From contig JARGSG010000015.1 in the NCBI GenBank assembly GCA_030374805.1, positions 806,001-870,000 on the forward strand: DNA of 64,000 nucleotides, given 5' to 3'. Below the pieces are notes generated by a model. It did no database searches and had not been told where the DNA came from. It was given only the letters and a program-made list of their open reading frames with translations. The translations under genes and the position numbers were made by a program. Below, one piece after another: positions 1,000 to 64,000 of the stretch (position 1 is its first letter; every line of letters starts with the position of its first letter). The DNA is from Gracilaria gracilis. Taxonomy: Eukaryota; Rhodophyta; Florideophyceae; Gracilariales; Gracilariaceae.

Positions 1000-1099
1000 C
1001 CGAACTGCGCACCCCAGCGAAACGTGTTCGTGTTTTGTTGAAGTGCGCTCTCCTGCGTATGTTACATCAAGCACCTATTTTGCCAAATAGAAGACATCC

Positions 1100-4030: not shown

Positions 4031-4039
4031 CAAATCACT

Positions 4040-6975: not shown

Positions 6976-7155
6976 CCATAAAGTTCATATATATCTACAG
7001 GTAAGCAGTTGTTGTAGCTGCATCATGGTGATGGGGGATGCGTCGAGCCAGATAGGTATTTGTGAAATGTGGCAATGCTTGTGGATCACAACTCCTCCAC
7101 TTGTTTAGAACAGCTCGTTTAATTGTGCAACTCGGCTACTCCCAGACAAGAGAGT

Positions 7156-9102
7156 CTACATAATCGCGCAAGAGGTGACGGTATGAGAGAAGATTATCGA
7201 CTCTTCTTCAGAACGGCCATCGGAGCTAGGAAAAGACTCATCAGCTTTAAGCCGCCTCACATCCACATTTTCTTCTGCCGCTAGCCGCCAAGCTTTTCTC
7301 GGTTCCACACAGTCAACCCCATTTCCGTTAATAACTTCTTCAGTTCTCTCCAGGCCAATGTCTCCATCAGTACCATCCTGTATACCAACATCAGTGGCCC
7401 TCAAGTGACAATCTTCAATCTCATCGTCAACAATCCCACTCTCCAAGGATAACCCGGCGCGGATACTGCGGCTTTCGGACTTAAACTCCCCTTGGAAACC
7501 GTCACCACTTCCGCTCTTACTTGAACGAGATTCAAATAGAGAAACCAACCTTTCCACACGCCCAGAAATATGTTCTGAAAGATCTTGCACCGATTACAGC
7601 GCCGGGTGCTCATAAACTCTCATTTCAGGCGCTGGTTCGGCTCTGAGAATTTCTGGTTCACCCTTCAAGCTCTGGTTCGACAATTGAGGAGCTGAAGCAA
7701 GTGTTCTCATTATCACTAATGATGATACTTTTTGAACTACAGTATCACAGGGTACAGCGGGTTCGCGCTGTTGAGGGAAGCTTTTCTCCTTTTTCACTTC
7801 TCCGATTGCGGTTTTATCCGCTGGTTCACTGTAGGAAACATCGCCGCAGTCATCGGTTACACTCTTCTTCTTCACATCTGTCTCTAGGTCAAGAGATTGT
7901 TTCGTGATTCGTTTGCAGTACTATCCTGTTTCGAGGTGTCTTCCTAGGATTCAAGTACAAGATTTGCGTGTACAAGTCCAGAAGTATCTTCTTCACATAG
8001 CTTTTGCAAATTCTTCACGTCTCCGACATGCACGTCAACTGGAGGCGCATTGGGTACGTCCGTGTTCACACCGTCTTTTTTTCCATTACATCAATCTCTC
8101 TTCGCTCATCTGTGAAAACCATCGAGCCCAAACCGCAAGCTTTGTGGGTGTACGTGCTTCTCTTCGTGAGATTTCCTTCTTGCACGGACGCCCTGGAGCG
8201 AGGCTCTTTAATAGTTTCTCTGGAACCCTTAGAGCCTATGAGGCCACTTCTTTCCGCCAAAAAGCCCTTGCCGAAACCTATTAACCGGCAGCTTCGTATT
8301 CAAAGAACCGGCAGCTTTGTATTCAAAGCAACTAGTTGGAAAGAAGGTGAGGATGGGGAACCTATCCCGATAGGTTCCCAATCTCACCTGCTTTCCACCT
8401 TGTTTATTTGAATACGAAGCTGCCGGTTGATCGCAGCTTGGCCAAAGTTCGCAGTACCATTCCTTTCTGCACAACCGATAAGTCGTCCCCGCTGCTCACC
8501 TTGCTTTTAACTCTATGTGAAGCTCCGTCCACCACCACACCTAGCGACTCTTTCTCTTCTGATGTTTCCACCGCTCTGTCATGCGAAAGATCGTGATCAT
8601 CACATTTGTTTCCTATTAACTGGACAACTGCCAGTATGTCGGCACTCAAGACACGCCCATCACTGTGTTCTATTTGATTATGATGAGACTCTGCTTGACT
8701 TTCGACACTCAAAGCAGTTGTGAACTCGAGCTTGCCGCTGTCTGCTGCTAGAGTACTATTCTTACCAAAACAGTCCATTGGGAAGGACAGTTTCCTTAGA
8801 AAACCTCTGACTTTCCTGTTGATAAACTTCATCCGAATGAAATTAATCTTACGAGGATGACGGAGCTCCGCGTCCTTTAACATGTTCTGTTGTGGCTCCG
8901 AGCTTTCCTCCTCCGCGGTCTTCGTTTCATTAGACACACGCTCGTACCCACGTCCATACAGATCCCATTCGATATAATTTCTCAATTCTTCATTCACCTG
9001 GAACTCTTTGATGGCTCTACGATTATCTTTCGTTTCTGGTTTGCTTTCCAGCATACTGACATACCCGTTTCCATTTCGTTCACAATGAACCATGTTGTCC
9101 AT
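7156..9102 (-). pseudogene. CaaX-family paralog C, decayed
   Basis: This is a paralog of the gene at 4040-5950. The N-terminal 232 residues (ATG at 9102, MDNMVHCERNG) read cleanly through FLRKLSFPMDCFG and TLAKLRSTGSFVFK, then hit a TAA at 8404-8406. The middle (7880-8400) keeps scattered homology in other frames (for example VGDVKNLQKLCEEDTS) and contains an inverted duplication. The C-terminal half reads openly again (RAEPAPEMRVYEHPAL) but a Gln codon of paralog B is a TAA stop near 7591. The last 144 codons are open (VERLVSLFESRSS) and end SCAIM, like B. Splicing around the lesions cannot be excluded but no good splice sites stand out. Confidence 0.75.
8306..8429. repeat. Imperfect inverted repeat inside pseudogene C
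   Basis: Two arms of about 61 bp are centred at 8367/8368. The core has perfect 11-bp arms (GGGAACCTATC and its complement) around CC. The outer arms carry the family coding block for CGGCAGCTT-GTATTCAAA in opposite orientations. A further direct copy of the outer block sits at 8283-8305. This is a local inverted duplication that breaks the gene. Confidence 0.7.
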
Positions 9103-9246
9103 TTCTTCTTTTGATTGAGAACCTCAAAGAATGCTGTTTCACACCAGATGCTTCCTTTAGCTACACACGCTCCAGATGTTGGAGATGTAACAAGGGAGTC
9201 TGGCGGTCGGAACCTTGGAGCAGCGTTTCCGTCTCATGAAAATCCC

Positions 9247-9253
9247 TTTTATA
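9247..9253 (-). promoter_or_regulatory. TATA box of paralog C
   Basis: TATAAAA on the minus strand about 145 bp upstream of the ATG at 9102. The surrounding promoter block is conserved with paralogs A and B although the gene body is decayed. Confidence 0.55.
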
Positions 9254-10572
9254 CCGAACTGTGCACCCCAGCGAAATATTTTCGTGTTCCAAACAAGTGC
9301 ACTCTTCGGCTTGTCATAGATGAAGCTTCAATTACTTCAATGGAAAGCATCCACGACAGAGGGGTAACAGCAACCATGTAATACCTGTGTGAACCTCTGA
9401 GGGTTCCTTACACCTCTTCCCTGCATATCCTTCCCATTTGAGTCATGGTTTGAACTCTCCGAAGCAATTTTCTCTGCATCCAGTGATTATCAGCGTCGAA
9501 GGGTGCTCCCAATACTATGTGCTCTTCAGTAACATTAACGTTTGCAATGCTCCCCAAAGTGCATCAAAGGATAACCGACACAAGCTAAATGTCTGGCTCC
9601 ACTATGTTCCTCGACATTCCTAGTCCTCAGATCACGTACACAAGCAGGGGGTTTGTATTCACTTTAACCTCCTCCTTACATAGATGTAGAACAACATATC
9701 CTGTTCTGCAATCTACAACCGCTCGCCATAATCAACACCCGATGCATCCACTTTTGAAGAATACCAGAAGCTTTCCCAAGTTCAACACCCAAATGCAAAG
9801 CTACTTCTGCAAACAGGTTGTGCGTATACTTTCTCTGTTAGCAATAGCGCAAAGCGCTCTGCTACTGAGCCTGATAGGATCTGAAGCACTAAAGCAGATG
9901 AAGCACGTCTTGCTCACACAGGTGAGTGGTCGATCGTCTTGATCCCCTAACCCACGTCTCTTAGTCATGCATCATCATCGCAGAGCACTTATTGAACGTA
10001 AACAAGCGTTAGCACCATAAGCCTTCCTGAACTCACTTTCGTGCAGACGATACTCAATACAGTCGCCTTCTCCATCACAAGTCTATCATTCTTGCTTTCT
10101 ACTTCAGCAGGAGATAGCGGTTGTTCGATGGCAGAGACAGGCACAACGGTGGGTTGCATGCGCGCCCCATGCTGGATTGGCGAAGACGAAAATCGCGGGG
10201 AAGTTTGAGCGGTTGAGAACGAGGCGTCGGCGCGGACAACATTTCGCCGCGGAGAGGTTCAGCCACCGAACTGAAAATGCGGCATTTAACGTCTCGCGAC
10301 TCGCGAGTCGCGAGGGGCCTGGCGTGTGTGCGCCACGCGCCGTGACCCTCGCATCTGGCAATCAACCAGATTGTTTACCAACGGTAGACAACCTCCATCA
10401 TCCTCGAGTCCCTCTGACAAATGTAAACCTCGCGAACTCCACCCAACACGGAACACATCCCGGGGATGGAAGATTCACACTTAATCACCATACACTCCAA
10501 TAACCACCAAGTTCTTCCTCAATGAGCCAAATGTGTCCTGTACATTGAACCCGACCCGCTCACCGCACTCCA
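9254..10572 (-). repeat. Duplicated 5' flank of paralog C, then gene-free DNA
   Basis: 9254-10370 corresponds to the upstream flank of paralog B (see 5951-6975). Beyond that to 10572 I see no gene. The stretch includes a 22-bp perfect palindrome at 10293. Confidence 0.5.
10293..10314. repeat. 22-bp perfect palindrome
   Basis: A perfectly self-complementary 22-mer built from the half-site CTCGCGACTCG. It is rich in CpG and contains nested CGCG and TCGCGA motifs. Confidence 0.8.
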
Positions 10573-43741: not shown

Positions 43742-44249
43742 TGTAGTACAATGAGACCTCAATGGGTTGGTGCCACGTGGGCCTACTGGTGCGCCTTGCT
43801 GGCTGCACTGTACCCAATTGGTATTCTGTATTTTATAATTTCTAATTTCTAATTTATAGTCCAGGATAGTTTAGCATTGCTGGCCCATGACAGTAGGTCA
43901 TGGGCACAGCCGATGACGTCATGCTCGCATGGGAGATCGGCGTCGGTGCACCTTGTATATATTGTGGTGCACCTCGCCTTCCCCCTCGGGTATTGTAAAG
44001 TCAGGCACCACTAGGGCAGTAACTATACCCTCTTGGTCACTTGCTACTCTATTACTATTCAGGTTTTACCGCGCGTCGACGTCTACTACCGTACACCTAC
44101 ACGGTCTAGACTAGTTGCCACGCCGTTTGCCCCTGCGGGTTTCAGGTGCCCTACTACCATATTGGTTGTGTGTTTTTCCCCTTTAGGTTGAGCCCTCGCG
44201 CGCTCCCTCTACCAGGCGGACCCCACACCTTATCGGTATTTGTACGACA
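43742..44249 (+). repeat. 5' LTR (508 bp)
   Basis: Starts TGTAGTACAA and ends TTTGTACGACA, so the termini form an imperfect inverted repeat. Contains a TGACGTCA (CRE-like) palindrome at 43914-43921, a 9-bp-stem dyad at 43883-43905 and a TATATA stretch that may be the promoter. Confidence 0.95.
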
Positions 44250-44252
44250 TTT

Positions 44253-44266
44253 TGGTCTCCCGACTT
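44253..44266 (+). other. Primer-binding site
   Basis: TGGTCTCCCGACTT starts 3 nt after the 5' LTR; the leading TGG pairs with a tRNA CCA end. The tRNA species is not identified. Confidence 0.6.
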
Positions 44267-44387
44267 AGAAGTTTCTTGGTTTTTGTCGTACCTTTACTGG
44301 TGAACAGAAGACATTCGAAAGGATTCTGGAAGTTCACACACCTATTTGGTTTCGTAGGAATACTCGCGAAGCAATTGGATACCACTA

Positions 44388-46559
44388 TTGGTCACTATGG
44401 AAAGACCTACAAGGATTACTCGTGGCTCTAGCGTGCCACCTAGCCACAAGGGTTCTGCTGCGGCTTCGGCCGCTAAACCCATTCTGGATAATCCCGAGGA
44501 GTTGCTTCGGCAACCTCGGGCCGGAACCTCAAAGGATACGGGCACTCAGCCACCGTTGGCTCCTGAACCTAACAAGGATTTGCCGACAACGGTTGAGGAC
44601 TTTTGGCCCCAATTGGAATATCGAGCGAAAGCTCTTTTTACCGCTACGGTTAATGAAGCTATGACCTCAATGGACATGGACGCCGTTACCCGCTTGGTGG
44701 TTGATCGAGCCGTGCACGAGCTCTCTCAACGCATACCTAAATTGGTTGAAACATACCTCTTAACGGGTGCCCGGGAGCATATCTACCGAGTGGTTCAAGA
44801 CCTTTGGGTTTCTTAAGGAATGGCGGAAGCCAAAACCCCTGGGGTGAATGTGGTTACTCGCATACCACAAGGGATCCCTGCCGGTTCTTCCGCACCAATC
44901 AAGCCAATTCCGGCCGATAGTGCGTACCTACAAGGTTTAAGGCAAGGTCAAGAGAACCATATAGAGATGGGCCCTCGAGACGTGTACTTGCCCCCCATTG
45001 GAGGTAACGTTCGAAAGGACACCAAGACTGGTGGACCTGAGGACGATTCGTCTGACCCAGAAGAGGGGCGACGAAGAAGAAACCGCAAGGGTAAAGAAAG
45101 GAGGAGGAAAAAGGGAAAGAATCGCGGCTACGACTCTGACCCCGATTCCTCGAGCTCCGATACCGATACTGGTTCATCGTCGGATGATGACCGTAAAGGT
45201 AGACGCAAGAAGAAACCGAACAGGTTGGCGAAGAAGTCGTCAAAGAGAAACCGGAAAGGTAAGAAGAAACGGTACGAGTCGTCCGACTCGGATTCGGACA
45301 CCGATACAACCCTAGAGGTGCGTCAGCCGCTGAACGATATGTTCACCAAAGCGGTTGATTATAGGTCATATCGGTTGAGAAACCGATCCTCTGCTTACAC
45401 CCAAGAGGTTGCGCAGAAGATCACCAAGCACCACAAGAAGCTCAACTTCCAGATGGGTGATACCACCTTCACAGGTGATGATCCCATTGCGGTAATTGAG
45501 TTTCTACAGAAGTTCAAGATTGCATGTGACCAAAATGGTTTTTCCGAAGGCGCTGCCATGTGGTTATTCCAGTTTTACCTTAAAGGTCAAGCTTACCACT
45601 TGCTGCAAGGCAGGTTCCGTGGAAATACCCAGGCGGTTGATGAAGAAGGGACAGAGATGTTAGAGACGTACCCAGAAGTGGTTAATTTCATGTTGGAAAC
45701 TTACGCTACCGATGAGGTTATCCAGGAAGGTTACGCTGAGGTGCAGGCATATCGCCAACGCTCTAGCCAAACCGAAATGGAATTCTCGTTAGGCCTTTGG
45801 AATCTGGCCACCCGATGCGGTAATGTCTTTACCACTAGTAGGTTGAAGTCGCTCTTTGCCGACAATGTTGACAAAGCGATCCGTTCGCAGGTACGCAATT
45901 ACCTGGCGAACAACCGTAAGGTGGACTATAATGGGCTTGCCCGTTATGCCCAGGGACTAGGCGACACTCTCCGTCACGGAAAGAAGCCGTCGGCGTCCCA
46001 TACCTCAAAGGATAAACCGAAACGGTCAGTATTGGAGCTAGAAGAAAGCACTACCTCAGAGGGAGATTCGCTCATTCGCGTACCAACAGGAATGGCAGTT
46101 CATCTCGTGACTGCGCCGCAGGCTCAGTCACGAGCCACCTCCATTGGTAATTGGTCGTCGACAGTACCACCAGCTTCGGTAAGGTCGCCACCAAGTGCGG
46201 CGAGCACTCAACAAACCTCAACGGGTGGTTCGCAAGCATCTTCATATGCTAAAGCACCGACCAATCCGGTTACCCGACCTACCTCTATGGCAATGCGTGA
46301 TCCCCAGACAGGTGGATTGGTTTGCTGGCTCTGTTTGTCGCCAGACCATCTGGCGAACAGATGTGACAAAATACCCCCAGGGGTGCGCGAACATCTGATC
46401 AGTGCCAGGCAGCAAAACCACCGTAACCTATATGGATCTGGAAAGAGGGTACAAGCTCAACCATCACCATCTCAGGTTCATCTCGTCGAGGAAACACCAA
46501 TCTTGGAGAAGGACAGTCCCGCTCAGGAGGAGCAGGAAAACACCGAACGGTTAGCGTAG
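44388..46559 (+). other. gag region of the LTR element
   Basis: Encodes a charged N-terminal segment, an Asp/Ser and Lys/Arg-rich low-complexity stretch, a capsid-like helical region (DDPIAVIEFLQKFKIACDQN region) and near the end a CX2CX4HX4C zinc knuckle. Confidence 0.85.
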
Positions 46560-46579
46560 GGGCCACCCCTAACCGTGAA

Positions 46580-49500
46580 TTGGAAGGCCCGTCGATACCG
46601 GAACGGGAAACCTTAATGGTGGAAAAAGAAGAATCAGATGTACCCAATGTGGTGTGTCTAATGAAGTACAATAACTATAAAGTTAATGCTTCAGTAAGCT
46701 TTCTCAATTACCTACAGGTCCCCGTTGCGTGTGTACTCGATACCGGCGCCGGTCCAAATGTCCTAAACGCTCGCGTCATACCCGATGCGGTCTTGCGGAA
46801 CATTCGGCCTGCCCCGACTATCAACCCGCTGGTGGACGCTAATGAGCGCCCACTGCACCTTAGAGGAATGTTAACCACTGTGGTACAACTTGGAACCTTG
46901 AAGGTGAAGCTCAATTTCTTTGTGGTGGATCGTTTGGCGACAGACTGTATCCTCGGGACCAACTTTATTGACAGACATGTCAAGGCAATTTTGCCAGGGT
47001 CCCGAACGGTCGCTCTCCGTCAAGGTGGTCGTATTGCCACACTGGGTAATACGCAGACCAAAAATGGTTGGCGTAAGAAGCCGAGGTTCAATATACCCAC
47101 CGAAACGGTTTCAAACAAGATACGGCTCACCAAATTGGTTTCAATTCCGGCTATGACCCAAATGGTAGTGAACGTCTCATGCGCAGTTCCAGGATTGGTA
47201 ATGCTACAGAACCATCCTAGGTTGGCAGAAAGACATCTCGCCTTGATGGCAAACGGGATTATCGACAACATCCCTAACCAATCCTTCAAGGTGTACTTGA
47301 GTAACTTTAGCAATCACATTGTTAAGTTACCCAAGAACACCACTATTGGAATCGCATTGCCGGCACCACAAGGGGTTTTCACGGTCTCACCTAATTGGTT
47401 GGGCGAGGTCGCCACCTCTAAGGAAGGGGGAGGAACAGATGCGCCATACCCTGCATATGCGCCCCCGTTATCGACAAACACCAAAATGGAACAGAAGATC
47501 GCCAATACCTTTAAAATTAGGGATCAGGAAAAGACTATGGAACTGGACCCAGTGCGGAATTGGAGAGAGGAAGTCCAGATCGGTGCGGAGAACCAGGCTC
47601 TCCGAGACCGGATCCTCAGTCTCTTAGAAGAATTTGAACCCATGTGGTCGGGCCGGTTGGGCCAAATTGAGGCTACAGAGCACCGTATTGATATGGTGCC
47701 TGGCTGGAAACCCATTTACCAGCAGCCTTACCGTGCAGGTCCAAAAGCCCGGGAGGTTGAGCTCAATGAGGTCGAGAGAATGCTCCGTGAAGGTGTCATA
47801 GAACCAGCAAATGCGGACTGGGCCAGCCCTGTGGTTCTCGTCACAAAGAAGAATGATACCCGTATGCGGTTCTGTGTGGACTACAGAAGACTGAATAGTA
47901 TGACCATTAGGGATTTGTACCCAATACCTAGAATGGACGAGTGTATAGATTCGTTGGGCAACGCCAAGATCTTTACTACGCTCGATGCCAATTGTGGTTA
48001 TTGGCAGGTACCTATCAGGGAAGAAGACAAGGACAAAACTACGTTTACTTGCCACGCTGGGTTATTCCGCTTTACGCGTATGCCCTTTGGGTTGCGAAAT
48101 GCCCCGGCTACCTTTCAGAGGGCGTTAGATATAATCCTTTCGAAGGTGAAGTGGAGAACCGCTCTGGTATACATCGACGATGTAATCATATATTCCAGAA
48201 CGGTATAGGAACATTTCCACCATGTTAGGGACGTTTTGAACCTTTTGAGGGAATCTGGAGTACCTTTGAAGCTCCGCAAGTGCGAATTCTTCACCAAAGA
48301 GGTAGAATACCTTGGTCATATCATCAGCCCTGGGAGGTTAGAAGTGACGCCGCGGAATATCCGGGCCGTGCAGGAGGCGAAGCCACCCACGTCCCAGACG
48401 GAAATCCGATCCTTTATAGGTTTGTGCAATGTGTACCGCCGGTTTATCAAGGGATTTGCCAAGATAGCGGCTCCCCTCAACAGAAAGCTGCTGAAAGGTC
48501 AACCTACAAGGTTTGAATGTCTTACCAATGAGGAAATGGATGCGTTCGAGGCGCTGAAACATGCGCTCTTGACACCTCCCATCTTGGCATTACCCAAAGC
48601 TGGTTTACGATACACGTTGGATACTGACGCCTCGGACGCCCAAATTGGTTGTTGCCTTATGCAGGAGCAAGAAAACGGCGACAAACTACCTATAGGGTAC
48701 TGGAGCCGTGCTTTGCACGCTGCAGAAAAGAACTACACAACAACCGAAAAGGAATGTCTGGCAGTGGTCTGGAGCATGTTGATGCTCCGTACCTACCTAT
48801 ATGGTGAAAGGTTCACGCTTCGAACCGACCATGATGCCCTACGGTGGATACTGGGTCTGGCCGACGCATCAGGCAGACTTGCCCGATGGCGATTACGACT
48901 TTCAGAGTTCGAATATGACGTACAGTACCGTCCAGGTATCAAGCACAATGTCGCAGACGCGATGTCCCGCATTACCACAGATGGTTTGGACACCGAGCCG
49001 GTAGAGGATGATATCCCATGCTTTACCATCTCTACCAACCCTGATGGTGATACCTTAGAAGGTTACTGGACTCTACCCGAAGAAAATACGTGGTTTAGTG
49101 ATGCCATCGCTCGGGAAATACTCGCCCTCGAGGAAACAGACGTCATGCCAATTACCCGCGAGGAATTCCTGAGAGAGCAAGCAAACGATGTTTATTGCCG
49201 CTCTCTCATGGACCAAGTAGGTATGAAAGACTCGAACTTTGACGTCGACCGAAATGGTTTCCTGGTGAGGCGAGCTCCTATTGATGGTTCCCTTCAGAAG
49301 GTGGTGCCCAAGGTACTGCGCCCTCGGGTGCTGTACCTGGCCCACTACCCAAGGCTATCAGGACACCCTGGAGGTACGAGAATGTACTACACCTTGAGGC
49401 AAGGGTACTACTGGCCTCATATGGCTAATGATGTATATACCTTTGTAGGTCAATGTGAATCTTGCGTACGTACCCGTGGAGGTCTCCGGAAGCACAGGAA

Positions 49501-50836
49501 ATACTTGAAGTTATTCCCTTCAGCGGGTCCTCTCGAGTTCGTCGCAATAGACCTTCTGGGTCCATTACCAAAAACCACAAGGGGATATCAGTACATCATC
49601 GTAATCACCGACAGGTTCTCGAAGCTCACGCGAGCGATACCCTTGAAGGACACGAAATCGACGACCCTCGCGGTGGCGTTCTTGAACAATTGGATCTACC
49701 CGTATGGTGCACCGCTTTATTTACTTACCGACAATGGTTCGAACTTAGCTTCGAAGTTCTTTGAAGCTGTTTGTAACCTCTTAGGTATTAAGCACTACTT
49801 CACCACTGCCTACCATCCGCAAACGAATGGGCAAGTGGAGCGCTTTAACCGAACACTGGTATCTCGGCTGCGACATTATACGGAAGAACACCAAACTGGT
49901 TGGGACGAGCTCGTGCAGCCCTTGACATATGCATATAACCTTCAGGTTCATCGAGCGACGCAAACTACGCCGTTCGATCTAATACTGTCAAGACACCCAC
50001 TAGGTATTGTTGTTGAAGGGGACCCATTAGGACAAGAAGCCGCCGGAGCGCTCACACCGTCACAGGTCAAACGGAATACCCTTTTGAGGTTGAGACGTGC
50101 TCTCAAGTATGCTGAGAGCAAGCTCACAGTATCCCAGAAGCGGTACAAGGAGGACTACGACCGAAAGGTAACCCAAGTGGTAACGGCTACGCCGGGTCAA
50201 TATGTCTTTATTGACCACCCCCCGAAAGGAGCTAAACCACGACCGGGTGATGAAGCTGATGATGAAGCTATTGATAGAGATATCAATTCTAAGCTTCTTC
50301 CGAAATCATCGGTACCTTTCAAGGTAGTTCGAGCAACCGACCACACGGTGACTGTGAACCAAGATGGTGTAGAGAATACGATCTCTATTGACCGAATCAC
50401 GGTTGCACCTCGAACGGTTCAGTCAAGGAAGGAACGCGGAGAATCCGCGCTTGACCCACAAGCGGTTGCCCTGAGGACTGAGCCCCAGGAAGACGGGACA
50501 CCCATCGAGGTTAATGATGATGCACAGGGTGACGACCCAGACTACGTACCACCTGCGGGGATTACGGTTGCTCCTTCAGAGGAAACACCTACCCCTAGTG
50601 GTACCGATGCTCATCTAAACCAAAGTGGTGAAAGGATACCATCGCAGGTCTCTAATGAGTTCCCAGTAGAACGCCTTGTAGGTCACCGCCGTACCCAAGA
50701 AGGTCTGAAGTACACAGTACGTTGGTATGGCTGGGGCGCCGATGGCGACACTGCTGAGCCGCCCTCAGCCATACCACACCATTTCAGGGTAAGCTACTGG
50801 AACCGCAAAGGAGAGGACATGCCGAATGATGGGTAA
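46580..50836 (+). other. pol region of the LTR element with chromodomain-like tail
   Basis: Aspartic protease around 46730 (LDTGAGPN), reverse transcriptase from about 47700 with the YIDD box, RNase H around 48600-49000 (DTDASDAQIG), integrase from about 49330 with HHCC finger (GHPGGTRMYY, CESC) and DDE core (AIDLLGPL, LTDNGSN, TNGQVERFN), then about 50660-50800 a chromodomain-like segment (YTVRWYGWGADGDTAEP), which in this clade guides insertion to chromatin marks. Confidence 0.9.
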
Positions 50837-51836
50837 ACCTCAGAGGTAATGCAGTCCCCCAAGGAAGGGGGAAAAGCACATTGTAATGAGGAGTACCAAA
50901 GTCGGTTCGGACGCTCACCGGGAAGGTACAATCAGAAGGATGAATTCCATGAGGGTACGTCCAAGGAGCGGTAGCGCTAAAGACGGACGCACCGTTGTAC
51001 GCGCGCCGTTGCACACGCGCCATGCACGTGCGCGGCACGCGCGCGAATCCGCACGGTGGAAACATTCAAAAAATTGTATCTTTTTATTTGAAGAGGCATA
51101 CGCGCGCTGCTCGTGGTGCGCCGTGCGGAGTAACCGATTCGGTTTACACTATTGTGTGTAGGGAGCGAGCAACGGCATGGTCAAAAAGTCTAAGTATTTT
51201 GACCGTGCCGCGCTCCCGAATCGGCCATTCCCAGCCTCTGAAACCCCTTGGTTCTCGAGATACAGACCAAAAGGGGTTTCTGCGTTTTCACTACCATATG
51301 GAGGGGTAATTTTCCGGTCAAATATTTTGATTCGCCTTGCAAGTAACCTCCAGGGTTAAACACCGCACGTGCGCCCATGCATGGTGAGAGGCCATGCAGA
51401 CCAATCCGGGTACATTGCTGGCCACCGCGCGCAAGCGCGTGGCACAACATTTCACCTTATGGGAAGGCGAAACCGCTCGCTGCGCCGTACGGAGGCGCAT
51501 CGAAGTACCAACGTGGTGAACCATACTACGAGCACCAAAATGGCTCAGAATGGAGCTAAGTCACCTCCTGGAACTTACCTACACGGAATTAACCGTCACC
51601 TATCGTGGTACGCTGGTCTAAGGAGGGGGGAGGAGAGTTTCAAAACCTAATTGGAGATGCGCAGAGCTAAGAAAGGGGGAGCGGTTTTCGAGCTTCCTCC
51701 CTTGCTACGCACCGCACCTCAAAGAAAACTGGAACCTACCATGGAAACGCATAACATGTAAGTTTACTTGAAGAGTAACACCAATAGGGATGCAGGAGCA
51801 ACGTAGCTCAAGCACAGACCCAAGTGGATACGACAA

Positions 51837-53936
51837 TCAACCTGATGTGTGAGTGGCAAAGTGAGGCCCCGAGGAGCCTCCAGCTGAGCATCCCCGACCC
51901 GGAGTGGTGTTCTGATGGGCTCCCGGCCAAGGCTGGAAGAGATGAGCCTGACCTGGAGCCTGGCTAGGCGCGCTACCATGACCCACGGGGGTACAAGTAG
52001 GCACGCTGACGCCTGGCATCAAGTCGGCACCCATCGGAGGTGGAGCGCTCGCCTGCGCAACTGACGGAGGTGCCGACGACCCGATGTGGAGAGGAGCCTG
52101 CGGAGCGGCTAGAAGGCCGGGGTTCAGGCTAGCACCAAATAGGGGATCCTCCAAAGGGTTTGTAGGCGTCGGGCCCATGGCCGTCGCTAGGCCTGCCACC
52201 TGGTTGGTAGCCATCTGGTAGAGCTCGACCTGGAACCGGTTCCGGAACTCACCAATTTGGGAAAAAAATCGCATGTACTGTGCATGACGAGGCAGGATGC
52301 TTTCCAGAAGGGTAAGAGCTTCGACCACAGAGGTAGGACCCGCCCGCTGGAAGTTCACCACACAGGCTTGGCGGACCCGAGCCATTAAACCGGAAATGGC
52401 CTGGGAGTCCACCTGAGAGAGGACAGGCGCCGCAGCCGCAGCCATGACACCCCCGAGGATAACCCGCAGAGGCCCATCAACCCTTGTGGTACTAGGGAGA
52501 AGAGGAGTCACACCAGTATGGGCAGGCGTATTGCGTCCCTCCGGAGCGGGAGTAGGCGCTGAAGTGACCACAGGGGTAGCTGCTGGCGATTCCACCACGG
52601 TTGGGAATGGCTCGGGACTTCCTGGAGGTCCCTGATCGGTCGGAGCCCGGGGATAGCGCTGCTCCGCGCGGGATACAACCTTCCAGGACACCGGATCGAA
52701 AACCTCCCACCCCTGCTTGGCTCCCCACGGGAAACTCTCCACTTGGGTAAGCAACGATTCCAGCTGCTCAATGGAGTAGTCTGTACCTCCCACAATGGTT
52801 CCGAGTCCAAATAGGCGAATGTCGCAAATGACCCTCGGGGGAATGAAGAACATACGACCAGGAGGTTGCACACCGTCACGGTAAATCTCGGCTTCTCGAG
52901 AACGACAATCCCAGTCAATACCGTCACGGGCAGCCTGCAGAGCCAAGATGGCCACCAATACGGCCCATTCCGCGAGGGCAATCGACCAAATGAGGTAATA
53001 CCGATCGTGGTTACGGGTGATATAGCTCCCGAAGGAAGCCAATACCGGTGGGGTTGGGACGCTAAGCGACATCGGAACCTCATAGGCATTCCACCATTCA
53101 GGTCGGGCCACATACCAAGAGGTTCTTCCCTTTTTAGGTTGTGAGAAGAACTCCACATTATGGAACCCATGCATGACGCGGTTGAAGCTGGACCGGGTGC
53201 GAATGCGAGCCTCGGTGGCAGCATCCACCCCCCACCTACGACGGTTAGCCCAATGGATGGTATTGTAAGGCCTATCGAAGCAAACCAAATGTGGAGAAGC
53301 CGGAAGGTACTGCTGCGGAAGGGAGTCGTACTGACAGATCTTCACAACCAGACGTCGGTAATAATGGAGCTCCGGTTCAATACGAACATACGGTAGATCG
53401 CTGGGATAAAGCGAGGGAATGAAATACCTCATTGGTGTGTGTCGCTGGCGGCTATCATAGCACGCCACCCGACCCTGACGAGGTTGAGATTCCTTATCCC
53501 GACGGTGGAGCGTTTGGGGGACGGAGCGGAGACGCTCGAAATCCCAACGAAACAAACCCAAGTAGGTATCCAAAGTCGGACGGCGCAAGACACCGGGAAG
53601 CGATGTGTTCCCCGGCGCCACTGGTCAGTTCCGACGGTACAGCGTCGCTTGCGACACCATTCTTGGATCGACCCCGAAGGTACCATGTTGGGAAACGTTC
53701 CAGTCGGCCGTGGTGAACGTCTCCAAACCATAATAGGAAATACCACGAGGAATCTCGGGCTCCGGACCATACGGGTCCCGGATCCCTTCGTGAATCCCTT
53801 GAGGTTGATTTGAGGAAGAATGAACCGGCTGTCTCCGAAAACCAGTTTGGATGCGGGAATGGTACAAAGCAGCACCCCGAGAACCAGACTTGGCAATGCC
53901 GTTTCCGCGGCCGCGCGAAGGACCGGCACCCGACAT
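51837..53936 (-). other. Long antisense reading frame between pol and 3' LTR
   Basis: On the strand opposite to gag-pol a mostly open frame of about 700 codons (about one break) starts MSGAGPSRGRGNG and ends near 51837. It has a polar N-terminal part, a globular-looking middle with one hydrophobic stretch (YYLIWSIALAEWAVLVAIL) and a Pro/Ala-rich tail. I do not recognise a family. Antisense ORFs in this position are known from some plant Gypsy elements, and the feature belongs to the retroelement, not to the host. Confidence 0.6.
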
Positions 53937-54817
53937 GGTGTGATGAGTACCGTGAGGGAGTGGTTGAGACGGCGAGCAGTCGACCGCAGGGGTGAAGCGA
54001 ATCGGCTTTTTATCCACAATGGGTGAGTCACTAGAGCTGATGCTCAAAACCTCCACCCGTTCGGGGTCCCATGCTGGTTCAACGACTAAGGCATCGGCAT
54101 TGGTCGCCGATGGCGCGCCGTCCCTTGAGGTTACCGCGTCCGATTGACCAACATGGGGAACCGATAATCGCCGTGTACCGCTACGGGTGCGAGCCCGCAC
54201 GCTGGTACCAGGGCTACCCATGTGGTTCAGATAAGGATCGGGGGTCACCATAAACGGATTCAACCTTGTCGGTCGGACGAAAAGCCACGATGGCGCGAGC
54301 CCGCGTGGACAAACCGCAAAGGGGTGCGAAGGCAACCAGAAGGGAGAACGATGAACCAACCTCGATGGAGTCAGCGTCAGTGCCTCGAAGGGTTGGTAGT
54401 CGAACCTCGAAGGGACAGAGAGACACGCCGCAACCAAGTGGGCGCCAAAACCCTTCATGGTACAGTGCTCACACGAGCCTGAAGGCGTAACCCGCCCCCC
54501 CGCACTGGGTATACCGACACGGTAAATGAGTCTAAGCCGTGCAGCCAAAAAGGTATAACCTTGGAGGTATGCAATGGGCGCGCGTCGCGCCCAAACCACA
54601 AATGGGGATGAATAGGCCGCTGTCGGTGATAACCAAAGAGGTGGATAGAGCCGCAATCGGTGATGACCAAGGTGGTGAACAGAGTGCGTTCGGTGATGCC
54701 GAACCGACGCGACGCACGGCGTGAGATGGCACGAAGGCTGCGACAGGGACCAAATTGGTACGACGATGCAACCGACTTGGTGAAAGGATCTAGGAGCCAC
54801 GAGGGCGTGGCTCAGGG

Positions 54818-54830
54818 TAGGAAGGGGGTC
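54818..54830 (+). other. Polypurine tract
   Basis: Purine-rich GGAAGGGGGTC immediately ahead of the 3' LTR. Confidence 0.6.
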
Positions 54831-55338
54831 TGTAGTACAATGAGACCTCAATGGGTTGGTGCCATGTGGGCCTACTGGTGCGCCTTGCTGGCTGCACTGT
54901 ACCCAATTGGTATTCTGTATTTTATAGTTTCTAATTTCTAATTTATAGTCTAGGATAGTTTAGCATTGCTGGCCCATGACAGTAGGTCATGGGCACAGCC
55001 GATGACGTCATGCCCGCATGGGGGATCGGCGTCGGTGCACCTTGTATATATTGTGGTGCACCTCGCCTTCCCCCTCGGGTATTGTAAAGTCAGGCACCAC
55101 TAGGGCAGTAACTATACCATCTTGGTCACCTGCTACTCTATTACTATTCAGGTTTTACCGCGCGTCGACGTCTACTACCGTACACCTACACGGTCTAGAC
55201 TAGTTGCCCCGCCGTTTGCCCCTGCGGGTTTCAGGTGCCCTACTACCATATTGGTTGTGTGTTTTTCCCCTTTAGGTTGAGCCCTCGCGCGCTCCCTCTA
55301 CCAGGCGGACCCCACACCTTATCGGTATTTGTACGACA
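54831..55338 (+). repeat. 3' LTR (508 bp)
   Basis: Same ends and length as the 5' copy; about 98.4% identical by eye. Followed by the second CTGCA target copy. Confidence 0.95.
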
Positions 55339-55550
55339 CTGCAGGCCTCTGAATGGGGATGCGAGCGTTTAAGTCGACTTTCCCGCGGTTACGAGACAGA
55401 TTTTTCTATGAAGAACGTGGCGAGAGAAAGATTGTTTTACTAAATATTGTACTGTTGCATAACCTGAGGTCCCGCCTTGTCGGCATTGATCAAATCCTTA
55501 GCACGTACATGCCACACCTTAGCGTAGAAGCTAATGACCTATTAAATTGA
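55339..55550 (+). pseudogene. Harbinger-like DDE transposase, 3' part
   Basis: Continuation of the transposase at 43249-43741 across the retrotransposon. It encodes LQASEW, then in a shifted frame GMRAFKSTFPRLRDRFFYEE and IVLLNIVLLHNLRSRLVGID through a TGA at 55550. SEWGMRA...FPRL...N.R...VG.NQI is the closing helix signature of HARBI1-type nucleases. One base appears missing between SEWG and MRAF, so the copy was already damaged or broke after insertion. The stop overlaps the stop of the convergent DUF6818 gene by a few bases. Confidence 0.75.
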
Positions 55551-56591
55551 ATCGTTGTTCGTGTTCTTCTTTGTATTCCTCTCCTGGTCAGAATTACTGT
55601 CCACTACTGGAGCCGGTCTACCGATTAAAGCCATCATCATCAATTGCATTGTACGCTCGTTGCGTGCCCTTTCCTGTTCGAACCTTAGCCTCTCTTCTTC
55701 ACGTCGCTCCCTCTCTTCTTCCCTACGCCTCCTGTCCTCCTCCTTTACCTCCATTAGATAAGACCGCTCTTCCTCCCGTCGCTTGCATTCTGCCTCTCGC
55801 TCCGCACCCTGTCTTTCAAATTCTGCTTGTCGCCATGCCTGATCTTGTATCATGTTCATTTGCATGAGCTGCATGATTGATTGATCGTCTTGAGTGCCTC
55901 GCCTCGGTAGCGGCAGCTTACGGCGGACTAGTGGTCGTGGCGATGGGGTGTACCCGGGCGAGAATGCCGGACTCCCTGACCCAGGTCTCCAGGTCTGCCT
56001 TTTTCCGGGTTGCAGCTTTTCGTCCTCCTCTCCGTTTGCTCGCCGAGCTCCGTGGCCATCGGAGGAGCCCGCCGGCATCTCTAGGTTCTCTGTGTACTCC
56101 TCTTCCGATTCAGCCCCATCTCCTAAATCCGCACGCGCAGTCATTTCCTCTCGCACGGCCTTGGCCCTTAGAATGTAGTTAGGAATTGTCGGATCACCCG
56201 TCGGCGCTGGGGTGCGGCACATTGCCGAGAATTTACGTCTCAAAGAGTCAGATGTTCTCTGATGCATCGGAAACCTCGTCAAGTGATGTCGTGCTACCAT
56301 TTCCCACTCCTGCCTTCCGAACGGCACGTACTCTTCCAGAAATTCCAGTAAATTCTCCACCTTGCTGAGCGAAACCCCGCTGCCTCTTCTACTTGCAGCA
56401 TGGTGCCCAGTAGCCCTCTTCGCAGTCTTCCTTTTCAGCGACTTTGCTGCAACAGGCAACTCGACAACGTTCTGACGAATACGTCCTGAAGGAGGCGTCT
56501 CAACGACGGCAATGTCATTGTGAGTCGGTGGCAAACTATTGCAATCATGTGCTTCGTTAGGCAGAGTATTCGATTCTCTTGCTGAAGGCAC
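55542..56591 (-). CDS. SANT/Myb-like DUF6818 protein, Harbinger partner (5' end uncertain)
   Basis: About 349 codons ending at 55542. Residues about 75-165 match the SANT-like DUF6818 pattern: VENLLEFLEEYVPFGRQEWE, then VARHHLTRFPMHQRTSDSLR, RKF and PTGDPTIPNYILRAKAVREE. The C-terminal 120 residues form a strongly charged coiled coil (RREEERERREEERLRFEQER). PIF/Harbinger elements characteristically encode a DDE nuclease plus a Myb/SANT DNA-binding partner, and this gene faces the transposase tail to tail. No ATG is found at the head of the frame, which stays open upstream to about 56705, so the true start is lost, spliced or non-ATG. Many such genes exist as domesticated or orphan copies. Confidence 0.7.
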   Translation of the reverse strand: MPSARESNTLPNEAHDCNSLPPTHNDIAVVETPPSGRIRQNVVELPVAAKSLKRKTAKRATGHHAASRRGSGVSLSKVENLLEFLEEYVPFGRQEWEMVARHHLTRFPMHQRTSDSLRRKFSAMCRTPAPTGDPTIPNYILRAKAVREEMTARADLGDGAESEEEYTENLEMPAGSSDGHGARRANGEEDEKLQPGKRQTWRPGSGSPAFSPGYTPSPRPLVRRKLPLPRRGTQDDQSIMQLMQMNMIQDQAWRQAEFERQGAEREAECKRREEERSYLMEVKEEDRRRREEERERREEERLRFEQERARNERTMQLMMMALIGRPAPVVDSNSDQERNTKKNTNNDSI

Positions 56592-57960: not shown

Positions 57961-58576
57961 GTGAGGTTGAAAAGTAAGAGACGTTTGTCGGACAAAGAGG
58001 AGAAGCACACCGGACGTTAGAAACGAGAAGTGGTGGCGCTGAGAAGCGTAGTGTGAACGTGGGGCGGCAGAGGTGCGGACGATGCGCTGTTCACTTGGGG
58101 CGGTTCTGCCAGCCGTTAAGAACCGTTGATACGCGACAACTTTTGCCGTGGATGCAAAAACGGGAAATTGCTGAAACCTGGTGAAATTCGCTTGGTTTTT
58201 TCTTTTTATTTTGTTTGCGACTGAAAGTGTGGTTGCTTCCATGAGTGTTGCTCATGGAAGCCAACCTGGAAGATGGGGACACCAAAAACACAACCGAACA
58301 CGTTTAAATCACAAACTGCGCCGTAGTATTTTGTAAGTTGTGATTTCCGGGGTCGCCCAGTTCCTATATCGCCACTGGGTTCAGCCAAATATTCCTACAT
58401 TCCTAAAACTCCAGAAGTAATGTCCAGGTAATTGTTGAAAACATGCAGCGCGCACGTTAACGGATAGAGCAATTAATTCACCACGGTAAAGAAGGACAAC
58501 ACATGGGAGAGTTTCAACAACAAGAGTATTTTATCCCCGTTCCAGTGGGGTAAGGAAATTTTATCAACCTTTTTTT
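57961..58576. other. Gene-free junction between two mobile elements
   Basis: No gene. It includes the stem-loop at 58231-58266 and a weaker 9-bp dyad (AAATCACAA / TTGTGATTT) near 58304-58344. Confidence 0.4.
58231..58266. repeat. Stem-loop, about 15 bp with one bulge
   Basis: GGTTGCTTCCATGAG pairs with CTCATGGAAGCCAACC around a 5-nt loop (TGTTG). Confidence 0.75.
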
Positions 58577-58583
58577 GGGTGAG

Positions 58584-58922
58584 TTCGGGTGAGCCAGTCC
58601 CAGCTCACCCGTATAGGGTGAGGGTGTCCCGCCGGCGGGTGAGATTCACCCTCAATCGAGGTGAAATGGCCTAAACCTCACCTGATGGGACGGCACTCTC
58701 ACCCAACGGAACCGCCTCACCCACACTTTGTCTCTGATCCCAGCTCGTCCGCTCTCTCTTCTCATCGTCGTTACTGGGCCACCATCACTCTCGCTTCTCT
58801 CCTTTCCCGCAGTCGAGCGCAGCCCTGCCCTCATCACAACCGTCCAAACCATACAAAAGAGGCGACTGCTGCACTTTGCTTGATGCCCGCCTTTTCCGCT
58901 CAAGGTTTTCAATGATATTAAC
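58584..58922 (+). repeat. Left terminal inverted repeat with GGGTGAG cluster
   Basis: Exact GGGTGAG or CTCACCC occurs at 58577, 58587, 58604, 58616, 58637, 58698 and 58716, plus near variants, and a perfect palindrome CCCGCCGGCGGG sits at 58628-58639. Likely binding sites for the element's own transposase. Confidence 0.85.
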
Positions 58923-59030
58923 CTATCCTGTGTTTCTTCAAAAACAATCTTAGAAACATCAGGGAAATTATAGACAATGGCGTTAAACCACGTTTCTTAT
59001 TCAACGTGCACAACGGCACTGGTGTGTTTA

Positions 59031-62000
59031 TTATTGGTTGCCTCGTCCGTTCGCTTTACTTTGCAATTCTTCAAGATCTTTTTCTGATATCTGGGCTCGA
59101 ACAAGAACAGTTTTCGTGTGCCAAGTTTCCCAAAATCTAGAGCATCTTGCTTGCCTACAAACACAACACCATTGGCTTTGTCTCGCCCCTCCCTTTTTGC
59201 GGTACAGCTTTCCTCCCTTATTGATCGTATGACTGTAATAACATAAAAAGCAGTACAAATCCTTTCCTTTCACTCGCTTGTGGAGCAGTGCTTGTCCTAA
59301 CCTTCTTTTTCTGTCTTCATCACGATTATACATTTCGACTACAGTTCTTCGATAGAGTGGTTCAATTGGAATCTCGACATCCAGCCGTGGAGAATATAGT
59401 AAGATTGAGTTTGTGCTTTTGCAGGTCAGTGTGCCTGCCGAAGACGCCTCTGCAACTTCACAGTATTCTTCAGCTAACTGGCGTGCAAAATCCGGAAACG
59501 AAGCACATCTTGAAACATCATTTCCCTATAAGAAATTTTTGGAGAAAGCAGAGTGCAATTTGAGGGTTGGTGGCACTTGTGGAGGATACGTGGATGCCGA
59601 ACGGATTTCATATTGAGTGCGCGCAGTCTGCGTTTGCAGCTTAATTTCGTGGTGTCCAATTGGAAGACGCTTGCTAGGCGGATTGAACGCATATGGAGTG
59701 CAAACGATACATATTGCACTCCTTTTGCGCCCACATTGTTCGTAGTCTGCACCCCGCGATGTCCAAATGCACTCCACGCGCACTCACAATAATGAAATAA
59801 ACTATTAAAAAAATAATCTGCCCTGACAAGGGTGTCCATTTGGAGCGCGAGCGGCGTATAGATCGAGTGCAGGTGGATGCTTAACTCTGCAAAAGATGCG
59901 CTCCACTTGCACTCACGAAAATGAAAAAATTTCTTGTCGGGTTTCGTGGTTGGGGGTATCTACCCTTATGACTCTCTATATACCTCTCTGGAAGTTTCCC
60001 TTTCCTCTTTGCCATAGAAAAGCGATGTAGAACTGCAGCGTTATTAACCTGAGCGCACAACAGTCTCCCAATAATACTGACAATTGGGTTTTCTGCTGCG
60101 TTCGTATAACAAAGGTTGGTCATCGCAAGACTAAACTCATCAACGCCACCTTTCAAATAATTCCAATATACAATAGCAGTCGGCCGAATCATGCGTGCAG
60201 GCGGTAGCGTTCCTGCTCTTTGTTCGAGACAGCGGTAGACCTCGGTAAGCGAATAATATGATGCAAACGAGTGTAAGTCTGAAGCGTGCGATGTTTGCAA
60301 GAGGTCATCATACTGTTCAGGAATATGATCTGGGCTCTTTCCAACCCAACGAAAGGCACCCACTCGCAGTGCTGAAGTAATGAAACCGTAGTTGTTCTTG
60401 AGAGTTTCATGAAACTCTGCAATACAAACGTATATAATCTCTCCTATACCGCAGTTACTTCTTCTTGACTGCACGAATATAACAGACCTCAAGTTCATGG
60501 CGAATGCGTGATGTAGACACTGCACGCGGTACTCTGTAGATGGTACCAGTTCATGAAACTGCTTGGAAGATTCCTCGTTTTGGCCAATGTCAGCTAGCCT
60601 TGTTACCGCCGCAAGCTTTTGCTTTACCTTCCGAGCTTCCTCAATTATGCGCAAGCTTGTCGAGGTCTTAATTTCTACTGCGCAGACGTGACTTTGTCCC
60701 TCCTCGTCTTCATAGCATAAAATAGCATCCAGACCGTCGCCCACCATCACCTCCGTATTGGAGGCAACAAGACCAACGGTTCGAATATATTGAACTGTGA
60801 ATTGGTTTTCACTGTACTGCGCATCACTGGATGTGAAGAATGATCCCAAGGTTACCTCATTGTGTTCGAAAAAGGCGGGTAGAGCCTTGAGTACCTGATG
60901 TTCATTAATACTGCCCTCTTTCACCCCGGCCGTTGTCACTAGAGGTTTCATCACCAACGAATTCAATGACTTCTTATACAAGCGGTCAAGAAGCTTTCTC
61001 CCTTTTGCCTCTCGCCTTTGCGATGGAGTTAATTGGTTCTGATTGGAGGGTGAAAGCGTTATTGTTCCATTTCGAACGCTTTCCTGTAGACTTAACACCT
61101 TCTCGATAAGCGATAAGCAAGGATTTTCGTAGTGATTGCAACTGACGGTGACCAATTGAAACCATCATCGAGAGTGTGTCACTCTTTGGCATTGCATTAA
61201 GGCGCTCAGTACTGGCAGACATAAACGAAGAGAGCAAATGATCTTGATTCTCTGAGGTCAAACCTGAATATACTTTCATATTCACTGCGTGACAGAGTAG
61301 AATCATATTTGATGTCAAACGTTTTATTGTAGCCTCTCCACTGTGTGGAAAACATTGCAACCCGTGTCCCAATTGCTTCCCTGCAACCAGAGATGCCAAT
61401 GCCTCCATCGCCTCTTCATTGTCTTCTGCAATTGCTCGCAAAAAGGCCTGTGTTCTGCGAGTTGTGAATTGAAAAGCTCTACTGAGGAACCAACCAGGAT
61501 CTTCAGATTGGAGCAACGTCACTTCTTGTACGCGTAGCAGAGCTTGATTCACACGCATTCTGTACGGAGACATAACCGATTTTGAATTGGCGGAAGCATC
61601 AATATCAACTAATGCTCGATCATAAACTGTGTGAAACAATTCTCTTTTTGTTGCACTCATGGGCTGCTCGTATCCTGTCTTTGGGATAAGGGTGAACTTC
61701 GTGGCCTTGAATATTCGGTCATTATTATGATATATGCTCGCTATCGGCCCACTGAAGCTCTCTCGATACACTGCAGCTTCAATATCTCTCCCGGAAGATG
61801 ACTTCGCTTTGCGGTTAGCACTGTATACGGCTCTACAACCTCGCTCGCTAACTACCATCCCCTTATGCCTTTTTCGTATTCGACCATCGCCAAAGACAAA
61901 AGGGTAGTCAAGACTTCGCTTGTGCGTTCCGATCTCCGTCGCTCCGAGTCGTTCATTGATGTAGTCAATGGTTTGCTTGTTATTGTAGCCTCTATCAGCA

Positions 62001-63509
62001 GCAAAGATGCGTCGGTCATGGGTCTGACTGGTCCCGCCGTAGGAACTCCTTGTATGAGACGCACAAGTCTTTCCCACACATCTGTTATTTTTTCACCAGG
62101 CCTGGAGTAGTGGCTTGCGATGAAAACAGGATTCAACGCCGAACACAATGCGTTATTAACAGAGCCCAAGGCCTTTTTCGGATTGTTCAAATGACTCATT
62201 GCTGTTAACTGCGCAACAGCTCTGGAACGTATTCTTTGGTGATCGTCGTCAAGGCCAAAAACAGTAGTACCTGGAAAATAAATATAAAGCCTGTTCACAG
62301 AAGCAAGCTCATCTTCGAGTTCTGTTATCAATGAATTTGCCCTCCGTGGAAAGTTTGACCAGCCCTCTCAAAGCGCCTCTACTCTTTGGCGCCTTCTTGT
62401 AGTGCATGACAACGCGTCCAGACCTGGCCCTATCGGGTGCTCGAAATGCCCATTTAAAAGAAAAACGGCCGATTTCTGGGAGCGGTAGTGGTCGATACAG
62501 TCAATGAGTAGGATGCCGCTAGAACCTGTAAAATAAGTATCCCTTTAAGCTCGAATGTAGAGGGCGGCTTTTGATTTCGTTAAAATGGAACACGGTTTAG
62601 ACTTTCAGCTACCTTGCCGAGGATATAATCCGGGAGGAAGACGCCCAGTACCGCCAATCTACCCAAATTGGTCTGAGTTACACCGTTGAAATTGATCTGC
62701 TTCTGTTTGATCTCGCTCATTACGTTATTGAGAATGGTGTTTGCCTCAGTGGCAAAGCGTTTTCCCAAGAACACATTGATCTAGTCGATGTCAATTGTCA
62801 AATTATTGAATGGAGAAGCGTAACTCCAATCATCGAGACCTCCGCTTGTAGTCTTCGCTGCCCTGTCGATACTCTCCCGCGCACTGCTCGCTTCGGTTTT
62901 TAATAAACTTTTTGAATCCCTGCTCATCTGCATTATGTTATCAATTCCATTGCTGAAAAGTGAAGACCAGATATCATCTACTGCAGTTTGTGGAGCCTCA
63001 CAATTGCTCTCTGTGACACCCATTCTATTAGAAACGTGTCGTTCGAACAAACTTTCAACCGGTAGCAAACGTAATTCCTTCTCTGGTATCTGCGACTGAT
63101 CTTCTGATTGAATGGAACCTGTTTTGGAAGGAACATCTGCAATCTGGAGCTCATTGGATCCTAGTGGAACAAAGAAATTGTCATTGCTACTGTCAGATGC
63201 ATCTGCAGACTCAAATTGAGTTAAGAGATCTTTCGCTATAGTGGGTGGTTGTGCGATATCAATAGGAGTGTGTAATGGTGGCTGATTGGCTGGGTTTTTG
63301 TTGTATTTTTGGAGATTGGTAGATAAAGACTCATATTCCGCGTGAATCTCTGGGGATGGTGATTTGGGAAACAAATCGGTTGGGTTCAATATGTGTACCG
63401 GACTCTCGCATTCTGGAGTTTTGCGCAGGGGTGACGGCTGAAATTTATCAACAGCAAACGTATAACGCTTAAGATCAGAGAAGGAAGGCGGTGATGGTAA
63501 TGGAGCCAT
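59031..63509 (-). pseudogene. Transposase-like / PD-(D/E)XK nuclease fusion gene, broken
   Basis: From 63509 (ATG, MAPLPSPPSFSDLKRYTF) the N-terminal 242 codons are polar and end at a stop; the same frame reopens at once (NVFLGKRFATEANTILNN). A possible 3' splice site (TTATTTTACAG) lies near 62525. Then in another frame comes FPGTTVFGLDDDHQRIRSRA and NNPKKALGSVNNALCSALNP. After a shift near 62030 come RRIFAADRGYNNKQTIDYIN, GTHKRSLDYPFVFGDGRI and RKRHKGMVVSERGCRAVYSA; after a second shift near 61140 comes a nuclease-like domain: EHQVLKALPAFF, VGDGLDAIL...AVEIKT (the D...ExK core) and EYRVQCLHHAFAMNLRSVIF. Past the MITE the frame continues in phase to a Cys-rich finger (YCFLC, CCVCRQARCSRFWETWH) and stops at 59031. 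At least two frame changes, an in-frame stop and the MITE make this copy inactive. Confidence 0.7.
59524..59941. mobile_element. MITE, 418 bp, inside the transposase-nuclease gene
   Basis: Ends are CCCTATAAGAAATTTTT and, inverted, CCCGACAAGAAATTTTTT, followed in both arms by GAGTGCAA. TTT flanks both sides (59521-59523 and 59942-59944), giving a 3-bp target duplication. Internally the element has a partial tandem repeat (CTCCACGCGCACTCAC/CTCCACTTGCACTCAC, GTGTCCAATTGG-type units) and no coding capacity. Removing it with one TTT restores an uninterrupted host-element reading frame (PQPRN joined to DVSRCASFPDFARQLAEEY). Confidence 0.75.
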
Positions 63510-63659
63510 ATGGGAGGCCTAATTCGCGAAAGCGGACAAGGTGGGGTTGAATCCAAGGTCAGCGGTCGTCTCGTTATTGCGGTAAGAATGTCCCGAAACA
63601 CTGTGTTGAGTGCAAGGCTACGCACAGGTGCAAAGAAAGACAACGCCTAGAATGAGTGA

Positions 63660-64000
63660 GCTATTGAAAGCGGTCAAGATCGGGAGCGGAAAAGGCGGAT
63701 TGAAGCCCAGTGCAGCGGTAGCCTCGTTTGTACGGTTTAGATGGCTGGGCTGAGTTCAGGGCTACGCTTGACTGCGGAAAAAGAGAGCAGCGAGAGTGAT
63801 GGTGACCCAGTAACGGCGGTGAGAAGCGAGAGCGGACGAGGTGGGATCACAGACAAAGTGTGGGTGAGGCGGTGCCGTTAGGTGAGAGTGCCGTCCCTTC
63901 AGGTGAGGTTTACGCCAATTCACCTCGATTGAGGGTCATTCTCACCCGCCGGCGGGACACCCTCATCCTGTACGGGTGAGATGGGACCGCTTCACCCGAA
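63660..64000 (-). repeat. Right terminal inverted repeat (cut by window edge)
   Basis: Inverted copy of the left arm; the palindrome CCCGCCGGCGGG recurs at 63945-63956 and the CTCACCC-type motifs recur at matching places. Confidence 0.85.

Follow-up and report, generated by a model that had tools for sequence, protein, structure and literature searches.

A decayed transposon of Gracilaria gracilis with long inverted repeats, piggyBac-like motifs and a nuclease-like domain probably nested within its transposase

Terminal repeats and coding region of the element

The window analysed here is a 64-kb stretch (64,000 nucleotides) of Gracilaria gracilis DNA, and its final 5.4 kb are framed by terminal inverted repeats (TIRs) that enclose ~4.8 kb of coding sequence on the minus strand. 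The paired part of the left TIR spans positions 58584–58901 (plus strand) and the right TIR positions 63684–64000 (minus strand), and blastn pairs the two with an E-value of 3.9e-107. All other inverted pairs of the window are far weaker, and no further copy of the TIRs was found elsewhere in it. Since the right TIR extends to position 64000, where the window ends, the element is cut there, and its far end and any target duplication lie beyond view. On the left, the true outer end is perhaps located a few bases beyond 58584, at 58568 or 58577. Just outside the paired repeat the sequence reads TCAA-CC (58564–58569, plus strand), which we conjecture to be a mutated TTAA target followed by the start of the element (CC...); the left flank, the only end within the window, is thus TCAA-CC and not TTAA, and TTAA is not visible. 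The hexamer GGTGAG/CTCACC is present in 8 copies within 58578–58721 compared with 56 across the whole window, and the copies in the left TIR are likely to represent putative protein-binding sites. A short hairpin, TCCATGAGTGTTGCTCATGGA, is located at 58240–58262, just to the left of the transposon.

The original prediction described long TIRs flanking one large minus-strand coding region. The TIRs are borne out by the inverted pair (318 bp, 87% identity, one gap, E about 1e-107), and so is the strand, with all of the predicted motifs (FGLDDDH, ADRGY, GTHKR, GDGLDAIL, VEIKT, the Cys finger and WH) residing on the minus strand. A single continuous frame is not what we observe: the coding sequence is spread over three frames, carries an in-frame TAG (62781–62783) within its N-terminal part and changes frame near 62330, 62015 and 61100–61150. 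Because neighbouring frames overlap at each of these changes, small indels are suggested rather than introns. An intron at about 62525–62612 (AAG/GTAGCT...TTTTACAG/G) would be possible, but is not claimed, the frame downstream of it being ambiguous. The N-terminal region of the transposase is probably encoded by a Ser/Pro-rich ORF of 242 codons (62784–63509, minus strand) that has no family match and would belong to the same protein, whereas an ORF of 424 codons (59881–61155, minus strand) contains the nuclease core together with the third aspartate motif of the transposase. Between this catalytic part and the Cys finger sits a repeat-rich stretch (about 59530–59930, minus strand) that has internal repeats as well as short inverted ends (AAGAAATTTTT...; 17 bp, 88%, E 0.025), features consistent with a nested non-autonomous insertion that probably interrupts the gene. 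The three frames, the TAG stop, the frameshifts and this repeat-rich interruption indicate that the copy is decayed, and it is almost certainly dead. For the searches and motif statistics only, the frameshifts were bridged by eye to yield a joined reading of 1100 residues from this one copy, the only one observed.

Motifs of the transposase and of the nuclease-like domain

The first aspartate motif (D1), FGLDDDHQRIRSR, was located by motif scan at 62221–62259 (minus strand), where it includes FGLDDDH and is preceded by Y-F-P-G with a P-to-D spacing one residue longer than in piggyBac (P261–D268); its pattern, Y.P...D[DE], arose in 289 of 20000 shuffles. The second (D2), AADRGYNN at 61979–62002 (minus strand), follows 86 residues after D1, compared with 78 in piggyBac (D268, D346). 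Beyond it lies GTHKRSLDYPF (61898–61930, minus strand), the counterpart of the GT..basic...P motif of piggyBac, published as GTVRxNKRxIP (PMC2533014). Taken alone, the loose GT pattern is weak, being reached by 1136 of 20000 shuffles. By eye the three motifs fit piggyBac (Y-F-P-G...LDDD; ADRGY; GTHKR....P), and the D1, D2 and GT block scores against piggyBac are at chance level. AlphaFold, run without relatives, models the D1 fragment at pLDDT 45 as helical rather than as strands. The GT part is followed by about 260 residues (60989–61750, minus strand; containing DPGWFLSRAFQFTTRRTQAFLRAI) that precede the nuclease core and were found to be without detectable relative.

Clearer similarity to piggyBac is observed towards the C-terminus. 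The motif P...Y....GGVD..D and the finger C-x2-C...C-x2-C-x4-C were presented in 2008 as hallmarks of piggyBac (PMC2533014), the third catalytic residue of which, D447, lies in KPQMVMYYNQTKGGVDTLDQ. In the element, the third aspartate motif (D3) is RPTAIVYWNYLKGGVD (about 60142–60210, minus strand), the counterpart of P433...G444-G445-V446-D447; its piggyBac-type catalytic stretch, PTAIVYWNYLKGGVD, is C-terminal to the PD-(D/E)XK core, and RPTAIVYWNYLKGGVDEFS resides downstream of that core within the same 424-codon ORF. The motif is matched in its core and not in full, with Ser replacing D450 and Trp replacing Y439. The residues N440 and G444-G445, which in piggyBac make contact with the TTAA and determine the shape of the helix turn on which D447 sits (PMC7351741), are retained here as N and GG. 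A pattern relaxed to Y/F/W and lacking the last D, P.{5,6}[YFW].{4}GGVD, was reached by only 2 of 20000 shuffles.

To score this site, a position-specific block was built from two sequences, namely T. ni piggyBac (checked against PDB 6x67) and piggyBat, two being used because the viral contigs, from which relatives for a deeper profile were to be collected, gave chance matches only. The D3 site scores 37, whereas the maximum in shuffles is 9.2 ± 3.8 and none of 500 shuffles attains 37. Across all six frames it is the only match of at least 20 in the window; in 259 kb of viral loci, a background composed of near-identical copies from a lambda-exonuclease scan, there is one match, at 21.5. Aligned to T. 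ni piggyBac by Smith-Waterman, the D3 region yields a z of 6.3 (0 of 300 shuffles), and hhalign of the whole reading lands on the same site, with a probability of only 2% and an E-value of 0.02. A phmmer search of the PDB with the D3 region alone did not retrieve piggyBac.

The Cys finger is positioned at 59112–59261 (minus strand) and has the form C-x2-C-x24-C-x2-C-x4-C...WH, as established by motif scan and published spacing, with YCFLC within 59241–59261, WCCVCRQARC at 59142–59171 and WHTK within 59112–59132. The spacing in piggyBac is C559-x2-C562...C574-x2-C577-x4-C582 (PMC2533014), such that the loop comprises 24 residues here and 11 in piggyBac; the pattern CFLC...CCVCRQARC was found in 1 of 20000 shuffles. 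D3 and the finger, the two hallmarks, lie towards the C-terminus and in the expected order.

The PD-(D/E)XK-like nuclease domain spans 60370–60924 (minus strand) and presents G-S-I-N-E, G-D-G-L-D-A, V-E-I-K-T and Y-R-V-Q, followed by two predicted strands, with GDGLDAIL at 60718–60741 and VEIKT within 60658–60684. PD-(D/E)XK nucleases of the lambda-exonuclease type carry a Glu in a helix, then D, E-x-K and Y..Q, and the domain resembles the lambda exonuclease/YqaJ family (PF09588) in this order, but differs from it in the lack of any detectable sequence match. None of 20000 shuffles contained the ordered chain G..NE, GDG, VEIKT, Y..Q, a pattern composed after seeing the sequence, whereas the D..ExK core by itself was reached by 45 of 20000. 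No match to the core was obtained in Pfam (PF09588 included), PHROGs, NCBIfam or the PDB. A Pfam match to COP-gamma after VEIKT was dismissed as sub-threshold (19 bits against a cut-off of 25) and biologically implausible. The AlphaFold model of the nuclease part, made without an alignment, has a pLDDT of only 33 and is no evidence of a fold, although the order of its elements (helix, two strands bearing D and ExK, helix, two strands) is compatible with PD-(D/E)XK. The predicted catalytic residues remain in the decayed copy, which says nothing on activity.

Placement, class and possible role of the nuclease-like domain

In piggyBac, a small insertion domain (residues 372–433) breaks the RNase H-like fold behind the fifth strand, and other DDE transposases that have such a domain carry it at the same place (PMC7351741). 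The spacing between D2 and D3 is 637 residues in the element compared with 101 in piggyBac, and the nuclease motifs fall within the excess; this interval holds the nuclease-like domain together with the preceding 260 or so residues. Because the domain occupies the D2–D3 interval, where piggyBac has its insertion domain, and because the third aspartate motif follows it in one ORF, it appears to be nested within the transposase rather than appended to it. We therefore consider the element to be, on balance, a decayed, piggyBac-like cut-and-paste transposon with long TIRs and a lambda-exonuclease/YqaJ-like PD-(D/E)XK domain nested between D2 and D3. The TIRs, the motifs with their order and the shared ORF of nuclease core and GGVD are direct observations, and our estimate refers to the architecture; how the protein folds, which activities it has, what the nuclease does and that all parts form one protein are inferred.

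The class assignment is shaped by what the searches returned. The original prediction had proposed profile searches as a check, and Pfam gave no match to any piece: PF13843 (DDE_Tnp_1_7) matched none of the pieces, nor the reading with the insertion removed, while the same library finds piggyBac at 8.7e-71. PDB sequence searches with pieces of the element were likewise empty. With D1, D2 and GT at chance, the assignment to piggyBac thus rests on D3, the finger and the order of the parts, and the element is, as judged from its sequence, probably a divergent piggyBac with an insertion, membership of the superfamily being not proven. The earlier description of a layout outside the textbook superfamilies is accordingly recast, on the strength of the GGVD motif and the finger spacing. 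Similarly, a transposase-like part and a PD-(D/E)XK-like core do share one TIR element as had been claimed, but a downstream fusion is probably not the right description, given that GGVD follows the nuclease in the same ORF, and the terminal finger, while present, is best read from its spacing as the piggyBac-type C-terminal cysteine-rich domain rather than as an extra module.

An alternative that we regard as unlikely is that the transposase belongs to a different DDE superfamily, perhaps an undescribed one, and has its third acidic residue ahead of the nuclease, which would make the nuclease a C-terminal fusion and the GGVD and finger a matter of coincidence or convergence. The chance-level D1, D2 and GT blocks and the lack of a Pfam match would be in keeping with this, as would the acidic residues present between D2 and the nuclease. 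The best-known piggyBac elements have TIRs shorter than the 300-bp scale found here, so the length of the repeats, which exceeds 300 bp, also points in this direction. Against it speak two independent published piggyBac motifs, which recur here with shuffle rates of 1e-4 and 5e-5, in the expected order and towards the C-terminus, as well as the D3 block, whose score no other site in the six frames approaches.

Two further explanations concern the nuclease itself. We deem it quite improbable that the core is a chance set of motifs or a dead structural insert without a nuclease fold, as might be argued from the failure to match Pfam, PHROGs, NCBIfam or the PDB, from the low AlphaFold confidence and from a best Pfam match to an implausible sub-threshold coatomer model. 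The ordered motif chain is absent from all of the 20000 shuffles, with D..ExK alone in 45, even the poor model exhibits the expected order of helices and strands, and PD-(D/E)XK families are known, according to one study (PMC1913061), to evade sequence methods. Very improbable, in our assessment, is the presence of two genes or nested elements, be it a nuclease-bearing sequence inserted into a piggyBac-like transposon or a two-ORF element such as ISL2EU. ISL2EU elements do carry a separate YqaJ ORF (PMC4482050) and the frame does change on the way from D2 to the nuclease, but the two frames overlap there, neither a spacer nor a stop-to-start gap nor inserted ends separate the parts, and the nuclease and GGVD share one uninterrupted ORF.

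Nesting in a piggyBac-like transposase thus remains our favoured reading, and it can be compared with known systems. The element shares with piggyBac (Trichoplusia ni, PDB 6x67, PF13843) the P...N..KGGVD third aspartate motif, the GT-x-basic...P after D2, the C-terminal C-x2-C...C-x2-C-x4-C finger and an insertion between D2 and D3, but the insertion is about 536 residues larger and nuclease-like, D450 is replaced by Ser, the TIRs exceed 300 bp, TTAA is not seen (left end only) and Pfam has no match. ISL2EU, of the PHIS superfamily, is also a DDE element that codes for a lambda-exonuclease/YqaJ-like nuclease (PMC4482050). In ISL2EU the nuclease has an ORF of its own, and the accompanying transposase is Harbinger-like, with a DDE triad and a 2-bp TSD, in contrast to the nested, piggyBac-like arrangement observed here, in which nuclease and GGVD reside in one ORF. 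KolobokP and KolobokD are likewise DDD/E transposons with an acquired nuclease, His-Me finger and DEDDh, respectively (PMC9587614), although their transposase superfamily and nuclease folds differ and KolobokP has terminal direct repeats. Within the literature covered, which lay outside Repbase, Dfam and most subscription papers, we found no transposon with a nuclease inside the transposase fold, nor a paper joining piggyBac with YqaJ or PD-(D/E)XK in this manner, and the nested arrangement is apparently undescribed. In viral and prokaryote collections no relatives of the element were found: viral contigs were negative when scanned with peptide patterns for its transposase, nuclease and core pieces, as were viral and genome contigs for fixed-gap DRGY...GTHKR DNA patterns, genome contigs for the core pattern, and phages and plasmids in tblastn searches.

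By analogy with piggyBac, the finger would bind the repeated GGTGAG/CTCACC sites in the TIR, the DDD site would nick, form hairpins on and join the transposon ends, and the nested nuclease would act on DNA within the channel formed by the insertion domain. Only tentatively, and leaning somewhat against it, do we suggest that a piggyBac-type lineage carries a functional exonuclease-type PD-(D/E)XK inside its DDD fold, such that one enzyme both moves the element and processes donor or target DNA. Since the insertion domain of piggyBac lines the target-DNA channel and contacts the TTAA flank (PMC7351741), a nuclease at this site could process flanks or donor ends; possible actions are trimming of the flanks, opening of ends, and resection of the donor break, the last of which would favour copying repair. 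Resection of donor or flanking DNA, upon which gap repair would copy the sister and restore the element, is our preferred guess because the Y..Q motif resembles exonucleases that degrade one strand, and as a guess it is a doubtful one. If the nesting is real, a DDE/D transposase can house a second nuclease at its insertion site, which, if true, would provide a cut-and-paste element with a new means to steer repair and copy number and would be of interest for piggyBac engineering.

Other features of the window

The content of the window is eukaryotic, including a Ty3-type LTR element, a DMAP1-like protein and a free-standing ATP-citrate lyase subunit without visible intron. The LTR retrotransposon (43742–55338) is bounded by 508-bp LTRs that are 98.4% identical, and codes on the plus strand (44820–50836) for a Ty3/gypsy-type reverse transcriptase, RNase H and integrase, with a chromodomain match that is sub-threshold. 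Its unusual length (11.6 kb) is due to ~3 kb between pol and the 3' LTR in which two long ORFs run on the opposite strand; these adjacent antisense ORFs of 594 and 408 codons (51840–54851, minus strand) have no Pfam match and possibly constitute a single gene, captured or accessory. Directly beyond the 3' LTR, an ORF at 55545–56591 (minus strand) encodes DUF6818 (E 4e-09) and a coiled, charged C-terminus. At the other end of the window, positions 142–9696 comprise several diverged tandem copies (67–81% identity) of a minus-strand gene family, with ORFs at 2–841, 4040–5950 and 8404–9102, the 636-aa copy being without a Pfam match. One copy of this family is adjoined by a near-perfect palindrome of 123 bp (8306–8428) that is 85% self-complementary.
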